The notes under the pieces: model-generated
Database searches by the model: none
What the model saw: only the letters and a program-made list of their open reading frames with translations
What the model was told of the DNA's origin: nothing
Position numbers and translations under genes: made by a program
NCBI RefSeq assembly: GCF_039538065.1
Contig: NZ_BAABBR010000001.1
Location: 1,712,501 to 1,776,500 of the forward strand
DNA length: 64,000 nucleotides
DNA from: Sphingomonas rosea
GTDB taxonomy: Bacteria; Pseudomonadota; Alphaproteobacteria; Sphingomonadales; Sphingomonadaceae
Reading direction: 5' to 3'
Part shown: positions 45,137 through 53,009 of the stretch, one piece after another
Layout of the letters: every line of letters starts with the position of its first letter
Numbering within the stretch: the stretch's first letter is position 1

Positions 45137-46504
45137 TTACTTGGTCTCGCTGCTGTCGTCGTACGTGCCCGAAAAGCTCTTATCGAGCATGTGCGGGCCG
45201 TCCGACGACTGGCCGGTGGTGCCGGTGGTCGAGGTCGACGTGGTCGACAGCGACGAGGCCGAACGATCCTGCTGGCGGTCGTTGTCCGAGCCGCCGAACA
45301 GGCCGCCCATCATGCCGCCCTGCTGACCCTCGTCACGCTCTTCCTGAAGACGCGAACGGATGCTGTCCTTGGTGCCGCTCAGCGTGACCTTGCCGTCCTC
45401 GACCTTCTCGAGGAGCGAGCAAGTGAAGCTGCGGTGGACGCCATTGGCTTCCGGATCGTTCTTGGTCAGGATGATCTTGTCACCGCGGACCTTGTCGACG
45501 GTGCCGATGCGCTCGCCATTTTCGTCGACGACTTCGGCATGCTCACGGATCTGCCCGAGCATCTGGCGCTTGGTCTGGCGGGTCGCGCGGAAGCTCGAGA
45601 ATTCGTTCTCGAACCGGCTCTGATGCTCGCGGCGATATTCGTCATAGTCGCGGTCGAGATCCTCGATCTGGCGCTGGCGCCAGCTCGAATAATGGTCGTC
45701 GTGCGTGCCGCGACCGAACTGCGTCTGGCCGCCGAACATCGACGAACGGCCCGTGTCGCGATCCTGGTCCTGGAAGCGGTCCTGGCGGCCATATTGCTGC
45801 TGGCCATAATCCTGGCTTCCGAAGCCCGACCCGCGGTCCGACTGGCCCCGGCCATAGTCGCCGGTCATCGGGCGATAGCGATCGCCACCCTGGCTCTGAT
45901 GGCCGCGACCCTGCAAGTCGTCGCGGTTGCGGTCGAACGACTGGCTCTGACCGAAGGAAGAGTTACCCGACTGGCCGTAGGACGACGAGCGGCTGCCATA
46001 GTCGCTCCGGCTTGAATCCTGCCGGCCGTAGTTGCCGCCGCCGAAGCCGCCGCTTTCACCGCCGCCGCGACCATACTGGTTCTGATAGTCGCCCTGGTCG
46101 CGGCCACGGCCATAGCTGCTCGACTGGCCGCCGCTGAAGAAGGCCGAGCGATCATTGTCGCGGCCATAGCGTCCGCCGCTCTCGCTCTCGTCATAGGCGC
46201 GCGGTTCATAGGTGCTGCTGCTGCTGCCCCAGCCGCCTTGGCCGGCGGTGTAGCCGCGCTGCTCGTTGTCGCTGCGGGTCTCGTAGCGGCGGCTGCTTTC
46301 GTTGCTGCGGCCGTAGCGGTCGTCGCGCTCGCGGCGTCCGCCCGAGCTTTCATCGCCGAACCAGCTGGAAACTTCGTCGGCCGCGCGCTGGAAAAAGCCG
46401 CGGTCGTCGCCGTCGTTGTTCCGATAGCCGCTGCGATCATCGCGCGAGCGGTCGTCACGGTAGCCGCGGTTCTGGTCGCGGCTGTCGTACCGATCGTAAG
46501 CCAT
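45137..46504 (-). CDS. Long disordered Tyr/Gly/Ser/Arg-rich protein with DUF2171 domain
   Basis: Encodes 455 residues from ATG 46504, which has GGAGGAG upstream. Residues 1-45 are Arg/Asp/Tyr-rich; ADEVSSWFGDE (42-52) is a motif also seen in sphingomonad BON-type stress proteins. Residues 53-270 are low complexity, made of Gly, Ser, Tyr, Arg, Asp and Gln with repeated YGR, DYG and RGG-like units. Residues 273-312 form a charged helix (IEDLDRDYDEYRREH). A DUF2171 (PRC-like) domain follows at about 320-380 (AEVVDENGERIGTVDKV), then a Ser/Thr-rich tail. No signal peptide. An EcfG promoter lies upstream and a terminator downstream, so it is a single stress gene. The composition suggests a protein that condenses or coats; that is inference. 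Confidence 0.85.
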   Translation of the reverse strand: MAYDRYDSRDQNRGYRDDRSRDDRSGYRNNDGDDRGFFQRAADEVSSWFGDESSGGRRERDDRYGRSNESSRRYETRSDNEQRGYTAGQGGWGSSSSTYEPRAYDESESGGRYGRDNDRSAFFSGGQSSSYGRGRDQGDYQNQYGRGGGESGGFGGGNYGRQDSSRSDYGSRSSSYGQSGNSSFGQSQSFDRNRDDLQGRGHQSQGGDRYRPMTGDYGRGQSDRGSGFGSQDYGQQQYGRQDRFQDQDRDTGRSSMFGGQTQFGRGTHDDHYSSWRQRQIEDLDRDYDEYRREHQSRFENEFSSFRATRQTKRQMLGQIREHAEVVDENGERIGTVDKVRGDKIILTKNDPEANGVHRSFTCSLLEKVEDGKVTLSGTKDSIRSRLQEERDEGQQGGMMGGLFGGSDNDRQQDRSASSLSTTSTSTTGTTGQSSDGPHMLDKSFSGTYDDSSETK

Positions 46505-46556: not shown

Positions 46557-46581
46557 AACGTCATGAAGGGGGTGCCGTTCC
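46557..46581 (-). promoter_or_regulatory. EcfG-type promoter before the disordered-protein gene
   Basis: On the minus strand GGAAC, 16 bases, CGTT matches the general stress consensus without mismatch, in the same form as the otsB promoter. The -10 part lies 52 bp upstream of the start codon at 46504. Confidence 0.8.
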
Positions 46582-46697: not shown

Positions 46698-46773
46698 GGG
46701 GCTGTAGCTCAGATGGGAGAGCGCTGCAATCGCACTGCAGAGGTCAGGGGTTCGATTCCCCTCAGCTCCACCA
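46698..46773 (+). tRNA. tRNA-Ala (anticodon CGC)
   Basis: A 76-base cloverleaf with encoded CCA (46771-46773). Acceptor arms GGGGCTG and CAGCTCC include the G3-U70 pair that marks alanine tRNA. The anticodon stem CTGCA/TGCAG encloses ATCGCAC, so the anticodon is CGC. The T-loop is GTTCGATTC. Confidence 0.95.
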
Positions 46774-50642: not shown

Positions 50643-53009
50643 TCAGTCGTCGTTGCCGCCGGTCAGGAACGCGGGAGCGAACTCGGGCGCGGGGCCGTCG
50701 TCGCGGCTGCCGCCGCCGTCACGGTCGCGGCGGGGGCCGCGATCGCCGCGGCCTTCGCCGCGCGGACCACGGTCGCGATCACCGCCACCTTCGCGGCGGG
50801 GACCACGGCCCTCGCGGCGACGGTCGCCGTCGCGGCCACCACGATCACCGCGATCACCGCGGGGACCACGATCGCCGCCTTCACGCGGCTCGCGCGGAGG
50901 ACGGGTGTCCTCCAACTCGGCGCCGGTTTCCTGGTCGACGACACGCATCGACAGGCGGACCTTGCCGCGATTGTCGACCTCGAGCAGCTTGACCTTCACT
51001 TCCTGACCCTCGGTCAGGACGTCGCGGACGTTCTCGACGCGCTCGTTCTTGATTTCCGAGACGTGCACCAGGCCATCCTTGCCGGGCATGAAGGTCACGA
51101 ACGCGCCGAAATCGACGATCGAGGCGACCTTGCCGGTGTAGATGGTGCCGGGCTCCGGCTCCTGGGTGATCCCCTGGATCCAGGCGCGGGCGGCCTCGAT
51201 CTGCTTCACGTCGGACGAGCTGATCTTGATCAGGCCCTCGTCGTCAATGTCGACCTTGGCGCCGGTGGTGGCGACGATCTCGCGGATCACCTTGCCGCCG
51301 GTGCCGATCACTTCGCGGATCTTGTCCTTGGCGATCTGCATGGTCTCGATGCGCGGCGCGTGAGCGGAAAGCTCGGTGCGGGTGCTGTCGAGCGCCTTGG
51401 CCATCTCGCCGAGGATGTGCGCGCGGCCGTCCTTCGCCTGGGCGAGAGCGACCTGCATGATCTCCTTGGTGATGCCGGCGACCTTGATGTCCATCTGCAT
51501 CGTGGTGATGCCCTGGTCGGTACCGGCAACCTTGAAGTCCATGTCGCCGAGGTGATCCTCGTCGCCGAGGATGTCGCTGATCACCGCGAACTTCTCACCC
51601 TCGAGGATGAGGCCCATGGCGATACCCGCGACCGGACGGGCGAGCGGAACGCCCGCGTCCATCATCGACAGCGAACCGCCGCAGACGGTGGCCATCGACG
51701 ACGAGCCGTTGCTCTCCGTGATGTCCGACAGGACGCGGATCGTGTACGGGAATTCCTCGCTGGTCGGGAGCACCGGATGAAGCGCGCGCCAGGCGAGCTT
51801 GCCGTGACCGACTTCGCGGCGACCCGGCGCACCGAAGCGGCCCACTTCACCGACCGAATAGGGCGGGAAGTTATAGTGCAGCATGAAGCGCGAGTAGCTG
51901 AGGCCGTCGAGGCCGTCGATCATCTGCTCGGCGTCCTTGGTGCCGAGGGTGGTGGTGCAGATCGCCTGCGTTTCGCCGCGGGTGAACAGCGCCGACCCGT
52001 GGGTGCGCGGGAGGAAGCCGACCATCGCCTCGATCGGACGGACGGTCTTGGTGTCGCGGCCGTCGATGCGGCGGCCTTCCTCGAGGATCGCGGTGCGGAC
52101 GATGTCCGCCTCCAGAACCTTGACGAGCTTGGCCGCAACGAGCTGCTCCTGCGGCTCGGCCTCGGCAAAGGCTTCCTTGGCCTTGGCGCGGGCGGCGTTC
52201 AGAAGGTCCGAACGCTCGGCCTTGGCGGTGACCTTGTAGGCCGCCGCGATGTCGGCGCCGATGAGGTCCTTGAGCTTGGCCTTGGTCGCGGCCTTGTCGT
52301 CGGCCTGCTTGAGGTCCCACGGATCCTTGGCGGCCTTTTCGGCGAGATCGCAGATCGCGTTGACGACCTTCTTGGCGGCCTCGTGCGCGAACACGACGGC
52401 ACCGAGCATGACTTCTTCCGACAGCTCCTTGGCTTCGGATTCGACCATCATGACCGCGCCACCGGTGGCGGCGACGACCAGATCGAGATCGCCTTCCTTC
52501 ACCTGCTCGGGGCTAGGATTGAGGATGTATTCGCCATTCTGGTAGCCGACGCGGGCGGCGCCGATCGGGCCCATGAAGGGAACGCCCGACAGGGTGAGGG
52601 CGGCCGAAGCGGCGCACATGGCGACGATGTCGGGCTCGTTCTCGCCATCGTAGGAAAGGACCTGCGCGATCACGAGGACTTCGTTATAGAAGCCTTCCGG
52701 GAACAGCGGGCGGATCGGGCGGTCGATGAGACGGCTGGTCAGCGTCTCCTTTTCGGTCGCGCCGCGCTCACGCTTGAAGAAGCCGCCCGGGATGCGCCCG
52801 GCAGCGGAGAACTTCTCCTGATAGTGAACGGTCAGCGGGAAGAAGTCCTGGCCGGGCTTGACGCTCTTGGCGGCGGTGACGGCGCACAGGACGACGGTTT
52901 CGCCCATGGTGGCCAGCACGGCGCCATCGGCCTGACGGGCAATGCGGCCGGTCTCGAGCTTCAGCGTCTTGCCGCCGAGATCGACTTCTACAGTGTTGAT
53001 GTTGAACAT
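50643..53009 (-). CDS. pnp: Polynucleotide phosphorylase
   Basis: Encodes 788 residues. Two RNase PH-like halves ([20 protein letters not shown] at the start; [19 protein letters not shown] with the catalytic acids in the second half), a KH domain ([15 protein letters not shown], about 565-620) and an S1 domain ([18 protein letters not shown], about 625-695) are all present. It degrades RNA 3' to 5' using phosphate. After S1 comes an unusual tail of about 85 residues rich in Arg, Gly, Asp and Pro ([15 protein letters not shown] type). ATG at 53009. It follows rpsO after 157 bp, as in most bacteria, with a hairpin between. Confidence 0.97.

Follow-up and report, generated by a model that had tools for sequence, protein, structure and literature searches.

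What might a bacterial protein do when nearly half of it is a predicted disordered stretch of about 200 residues, lysine-free and rich in arginine and tyrosine, set between conserved elements and behind a putative stress promoter? The question is raised by a gene in the window, the 64,000-nt stretch of Sphingomonas rosea DNA analysed here, which a sequence-only reading had taken to encode a FUS-like low-complexity protein under general stress control.

Gene, domains and predicted structure

The gene is an open reading frame of 455 codons for amino acids. The frame proposed earlier was confirmed, and its strand, left unstated then, is minus. Its features, in window coordinates, are as follows.

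46557..46581, minus strand: EcfG-type promoter GGAAC-N16-CGTT, 5′ end 77 nt upstream of the ATG (pattern match and conservation)
45137..46504, minus strand: gene of the 455-aa SWFGD / low-complexity / DUF2171 protein (ATG at 46504, stop at 45139-45137)
46322..46408, minus strand: SWFGD domain, residues 33-61 (NF033157, 40.8 bits against a cut-off of 35)
45704..46321, minus strand: disordered Y/G/S/R/D/Q region between SWFGD and core, residues about 62-267 (AlphaFold2 and composition)
45551..45697, minus strand: long conserved helix, residues 270-318, 49 aa (AlphaFold2 and conserved alignment columns)
45359..45550, minus strand: DUF2171 (PF09939), PRC-barrel-like domain, residues 319-382 (Pfam, 61.7 bits against a gathering cut-off of 25)
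45161..45187, minus strand: C-terminal motif LDKSFSGTY, residues 440-448 (invariant alignment columns)

At the start assigned here, aligned homologues share a MAYDRYD-like N-terminus, and a GGAGG-type ribosome site lies immediately 5′ of the gene (by eye). The profile scores bear out the SWFGD motif and the DUF2171 domain that had been read from the sequence. AlphaFold2 predicts helices at residues 37-49 and 270-318 and a small beta barrel, while pLDDT is below 50 across nearly all of residues 50-265; the low-complexity region (LCR) is thus modelled as disordered, a point on which the earlier reading could have failed. The SWFGD helix (37-49) is predicted to be amphipathic, with a hydrophobic moment of 0.50. 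Fold comparison of the DUF2171 domain (Foldseek/VIA-align) gave tentative matches to PRC barrels, that of the ribosome maturation factor RimM among them. The Pfam scan of the 455-aa protein gave DUF2171 and a sub-threshold PRC match only, with no RNA-binding domain; no solved structure related by sequence was found at E <= 1, and no PADLOC profile matched at E <= 0.001. Antisense to the gene runs a 274-aa Ala/Val/Leu-rich open frame (window 45191-46015, plus strand), probably a by-product of GC-rich sense codons.

Residues 53-270 comprise 47 G, 36 S, 31 R, 23 D, 23 Q, 16 Y, 9 F, 8 E and no K, with Y, G, S, R, D and Q making up 81%, and lysine is absent from residues 1-267. The disordered part was defined as the N-terminus up to the core with the SWFGD module removed; in this protein it has 251 residues, among them 40 R, 0 K, 31 D, 9 E and 20 Y. 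Ranked by the richest 150-residue stretch of Y/G/S/Q/N/R/D, the gene came first of 236 roughly called genes of at least 150 aa, drawn from the window and 320 kb sampled from this genome. The low complexity claimed for residues 53-270 therefore stands, as do two of its short motifs, YGR (7 in the disordered part against 0.6 in shuffles) and DYG (3 against 0.5). RGG is not enriched there (1 against 1.5), nor is [GS]Y[GS] (2 against 2.4), and SYG occurs only twice in 53-270. Tandem DNA repeats were rejected as a visible origin of the LCR, the only ones present being short, with 2-5 copies and scores of at most 41. Second of the 236 by composition was a double cold-shock-domain protein of the same genome (C1:812998-813840, minus strand; L094:12998-13840), whose N-terminal region, about 115 residues long and starting MGYDRG, is rich in Gly, Phe, Tyr, Arg and Asp.

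Charge, lysine and aromatic spacing across homologues

A homologue search limited to proteins of 0.55-1.75 times the query length gave 1915 matches among 7993 scored candidates. We combined the best 120 of the 1915 with 43 locus proteins into a set of 163, keeping overlaps between the two; an earlier parse of homologues had handled 122 of 139. The disordered parts of these 163 (best 120 of 1915 included) run from 74 to 311 residues, with mean contents of 18% Gly, 19% Arg and about 11% Tyr+Phe+Trp and almost no aliphatics. They hold 6046 arginines and 41 lysines, and the cores of the same proteins 2265 and 839; K/(K+R) in a 313-gene sample of this genome is 0.30. Their net charge per residue averages −0.0003 (sd 0.011). 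No homologue without a disordered part, which would have told against the earlier reading, was found among these 163, of which 120 came from the length-limited search; the shortest such part has 74 residues. Within at most 35 residues of the end, and often at the very C-terminus, 153 of the 163 (again with the best 120 of 1915) carry an LNRSFSGTY-like tail, perhaps a degron or docking tail.

The neutrality is tighter than chance would give. Thinning to less than 15% shared 4-mers left 36 non-redundant LCRs, whose net charges lie between −3 and +3 despite 30-110 charged residues each. The variance of their standardised net charge z is 0.047, against 1 for independent signs, and Markov nulls of orders 0-3 trained on the same 36 LCRs gave 0.97, 0.71, 0.61 and 0.44, none of 200 simulations per order reaching the observed value. 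Opposite charges are also mixed locally: the variance of net charge in 40-residue windows is 3.24 against 11.4 after shuffling, and for the LCR of this protein 1.47 against 10.4. Aromatics are evenly spaced, with a 20-residue window variance of 0.96 against 1.76 in shuffles. Third-order Markov models partly explain the short-range mixing. At the 10-residue scale 3 of 200 such simulations were at or below the observed value for charge, and likewise 3 of 200 for aromatics; for aromatics at 40 residues the third-order model suffices (51 of 200).

Sequence itself is kept less. In 60 random non-redundant pairs, LCR identity was 0.41, against 0.33 when both members were shuffled, and core identity was 0.57. 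Conservation in the LCR thus concerns composition and charge more than the order of residues, apart from some embedded motifs; one of these, YRPMTGDYGR, lies at about residues 210-219 in the homologue alignment. The expectation that composition would hold while sequence drifts was thereby supported.

These statistics come from homologues, which are not independent of one another, and two controls narrow what they mean. The folded core has a net charge of −3.4 (sd 1.7), and the LCR −0.5 (sd 1.7). Across 69 disjoint pairs, LCRs differ in net charge by an rms of 2.08, where independent changes would give 10.3. Compensation is nonetheless of the same kind in both (mean z² 0.122 in the core, 0.110 in the LCR), which weakens pairwise compensation as LCR-specific evidence. 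Within the LCR it is seen for substitutions (mean z² 0.245) and for indels (0.461), and alignment shifts may add to the signal. Since the core is equally tight, tight charge control by itself is not specific to the LCR. What sets the LCR apart is that its charge settles close to zero, that it has almost no lysine, and that its charges are mixed and its aromatics evenly spread, all in a region of variable sequence and length, where a pair of homologues shows 66 differences that change charge (20 in the core). The second control, 27 other disordered-like segments of this genome with at least 15 charges (rough gene calls), gave a mean z² of 4.68. It is a weak one, because a few extreme segments, some of them probably wrong frames, dominate that mean; the median is near 0.5 (rows judged by eye), and several segments lie near zero, such as the tail of PNPase. 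With that weakness, it indicates that disordered-like segments here are not generally held at zero charge. Its weakness leaves the odds given below unchanged, since they rest on the binomial and Markov nulls. The PNPase gene itself lies in the window (50646-53009, minus strand), and the 102-residue C-terminal tail of its product has 24 R and 25 D+E but no K, which leaves it net neutral, a similar charge rule without the tyrosines.

A second branch of SWFGD proteins serves as a replicate. It has a BON domain in place of DUF2171, and its LCR is N-terminal, ahead of the SWFGD helix. In the 114 of 120 sampled proteins that could be parsed (6 could not), the LCRs contain 2618 R and 20 K. A non-redundant set of 66 has a mean z² of 0.165, where the minimum of 2000 binomial simulations was 0.53. 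Charges are mixed and aromatics even; in all four tests, none of 200 shuffles gave a value as low as the observed one. Net charges range from −8 to +2 with a slightly negative mean (−0.013 per residue), so that the rule is present but looser. Between the two non-redundant sets, the 4-mers common to BON-type and DUF2171-type LCRs amount to 14% at most. With a similar polymer carried on another domain, the combination of LCR and SWFGD has the look of a module common to both branches.

The EcfG-type promoter and the distribution of the family

An EcfG promoter had been claimed upstream of the gene, and a site of the regulon's GGAAC-N16/17-CGTT form is present. The pattern was rejected as stand-alone evidence, as the genome has 31 sites against 37 for a reversed control and the window has 3 against 1.4 expected. 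It becomes convincing, despite this lack of genome-wide enrichment, because it is conserved upstream of homologues. From 52 homologue loci, 50 had the core and 44 were distinct; leaving out this gene and one with a short upstream region gave 42. An exact site occurs within 350 nt upstream in 19 of these 42, starting 78-113 nt upstream in 17 cases and at 57 and 213 nt in the other two. By comparison, no exact motif turned up in 820 further segments of 350 nt from these loci. Among 266 other genes (8 homologue loci and 16 stretches of this genome, scanned from −350 to +60), 2 had one nearby. Because homologue starts were picked by pattern, the upstream region may be misplaced in some cases. In the remaining 23 of the 42, the 350 nt upstream lack an exact site, and stress control may therefore not be universal, or the site may vary.

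The anti-sigma factor NepR is encoded in this genome. Published passages describe EcfG targets bearing GGAAC-N16-CGTT in Sphingopyxis granuli (PMC7083833) and a close variant of the motif in Sphingomonas melonis (PMC6599016), and those of the latter paper name a PRC-barrel gene and several hypothetical genes. Taken together, a placement under an EcfG general-stress promoter is well supported as a prediction from sequence conservation. Expression would then depend on EcfG, in keeping with the general stress control first suggested.

Matches to the SWFGD model occur in 15 of 147 genomes from the order, this one included, and in 4 of 190 from the class, again including this one, 2 of the 4 lying outside the family. 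The helix-plus-barrel core is wider, with some match at E <= 1e-6 in 129 of 249 genomes of the family. Among the matches listed, a count found the long form at 95 bits or more in at least 42 family genomes, this one included, and the weaker core matches listed are mainly DUF2171 or helix alone. NF033157 itself matches 20 of 26 aligned members, this protein among them. A divergent tRNA-Ala(CGC) gene stands upstream in the window (46698-46773, plus strand) and in all seven named loci scanned (L002-L008), and the genes therefore look like orthologues in place. In four loci (L015, L020, L022, L023) the LCR is N-terminal to the SWFGD helix and not after it. This genome also has a stand-alone 90-aa DUF2171 paralogue (L010, C1:1086637-1086888, minus strand), with GGAAC-N18-CGTT upstream (spacing counted by eye).

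Possible functions and comparison with known systems

Our preferred reading, to which we give a probability of about 0.5, is that of a stress protein tuned to condense reversibly through Arg and Tyr. Such a protein would be made in the cytoplasm during the alphaproteobacterial general stress response (EcfG). Selection would keep its disordered region close to neutral and free of lysine, an Arg/Asp polymer along which Tyr/Phe 'stickers' are evenly spaced, and Arg-Tyr and Arg-Asp contacts would permit reversible condensation without strong nucleic-acid binding. The SWFGD helix would most likely be a docking element, and the long helix with the PRC-like barrel would most likely mediate oligomerisation or partner binding, lending the polymer both valency and a target; the whole may serve a protective function. 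Even aromatic spacing, according to Martin and co-workers in 2020, reportedly leads to liquid rather than solid assemblies. A modelling study, in the passages that treat this point, has Arg-to-Lys changes and raised net charge destabilising prion-like condensates (PMC11820118). Near-zero charge, arginine over lysine, mixing and even aromatics are conditions for ready prion-like condensation. We take condensation to be the likeliest function. The condensate idea of the sequence-only reading is thus compatible with the lysine, charge, mixing and spacing rules and strengthened by them, while staying conjectural.

Next, and considerably less probable, comes a soluble hydrophilin or zwitterionic shield, whose neutral Gly-rich region would stay dispersed and protect proteins or water structure in desiccation or osmotic stress. 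Hydrophilins are recognised by glycine above 6% and a hydrophilicity index above 1; the 18% mean glycine of the 163 disordered parts (best 120 of 1915 included) lies well above the first of these, and the scarcity of aliphatics and the general-stress promoter also suit this explanation. Some sources even call SWFGD-BON relatives 'osmotically-inducible protein OsmY', and plain solubilisers can likewise be neutral hydrophilic regions. A mere solubiliser, however, has no obvious need of about 11% of evenly spaced aromatics or of a near absence of lysine.

The same argument bears on a flexible tether, in which the LCR would do no more than hold the SWFGD docking helix at a distance from the PRC-like barrel, and its length and solubility would count, not self-association. 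Conserved ordered parts around a drifting disordered part of 74-311 residues are what a tether would show, but a spacer needs no neutrality, lysine absence or sticker spacing, and the LCR lies outside the SWFGD-core interval in the four loci named above and precedes the helix in SWFGD-BON proteins, which makes this explanation unlikely. Least probable is an RGG-type RNA- or DNA-binding protein coating nucleoid or RNA, for which 19% Arg, much Gly and RimM among the fold matches might speak, but which sits badly with RGG units no commoner than in shuffles, a locally mixed net charge near zero and a Pfam result without an RNA-binding domain; the idea of a nucleoid coat is weakened because the region is net neutral, not positive.

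Condensation may also extend beyond this one protein. Tentatively, and with clearly less confidence than in condensation itself, we suggest that LCR and SWFGD form a sphingomonad general-stress condensation module. Its LCRs would be resilin-like polymers of natural origin, whose sequences drift while selection keeps their charge close to zero, excludes lysine and maintains the even spacing of aromatics. They would be carried on PRC-type and BON-type effectors, so that both types gather in one reversible stress compartment.

The names SWFGD and DUF2171 already stand in public libraries, and our partly narrow queries found no functional study of the family. Literature under SWFGD consisted of air-pollution papers, with nothing on the protein, and that under DUF2171 of Acinetobacter papers whose relevant passages merely name the gene. 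Narrow queries on the BON domain with Sphingomonas and general stress response, and on prion-like regions or bacterial condensates in this context, returned nothing, and titles and abstract openings on conserved charge neutrality gave no such rule. Nor did these partly narrow queries yield an earlier description of the rule for charge and lysine, of its recurrence on two types of domain or of its connection with a stress promoter.

Sticker-and-spacer rules have been drawn mainly from eukaryotic and synthetic proteins. If our reading is true, this would be a bacterial disordered region that conserves a physical property more than its sequence and is tied to a stress sigma factor, and it would offer a natural test bed for those rules. 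It could also give a handle on the unexplained share of the alphaproteobacterial general stress response; in S. melonis Fr1, a passage of PMC6599016 puts about 40% of EcfG-dependent genes without an assignable specific function.

Among known families, NF033157 supplies a domain that scores above its curated cut-off here, in a model that spans 29 residues and leaves the LCR outside; its partner is DUF2171 in this protein and BON in the other branch. DUF2171 also exists in stand-alone forms, the 90-aa paralogue included, to which this protein adds the SWFGD helix, the LCR and the long helix. The prion-like regions of the FET proteins (FUS, EWSR1, TAF15) are disordered and rich in Tyr, Gly, Ser, Gln and Arg, as the LCR is, but the LCR carries many balanced charges and shows no enrichment of GSY or RGG, and the Pfam scan gave no RNA-binding domain. 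'FUS-like' therefore holds for a disordered low-complexity region and otherwise as a loose analogy only, since FET-type motifs and domains do not follow. A tandem octapeptide array of the resilin-like type was not found in the gene, which has only short DNA repeats of 2-5 copies. Synthetic (GRGDSPYS)n resilin-like polypeptides, as described in parts of PMC10491311, phase-separate below an upper critical temperature and share with the LCR a net-neutral combination of Arg and Asp with Gly, Ser and Tyr. The LCR differs in being natural, with little Pro and much Gln, and in being joined to folded domains. On our best reading, the protein resembles these synthetic polypeptides more than it resembles FUS.
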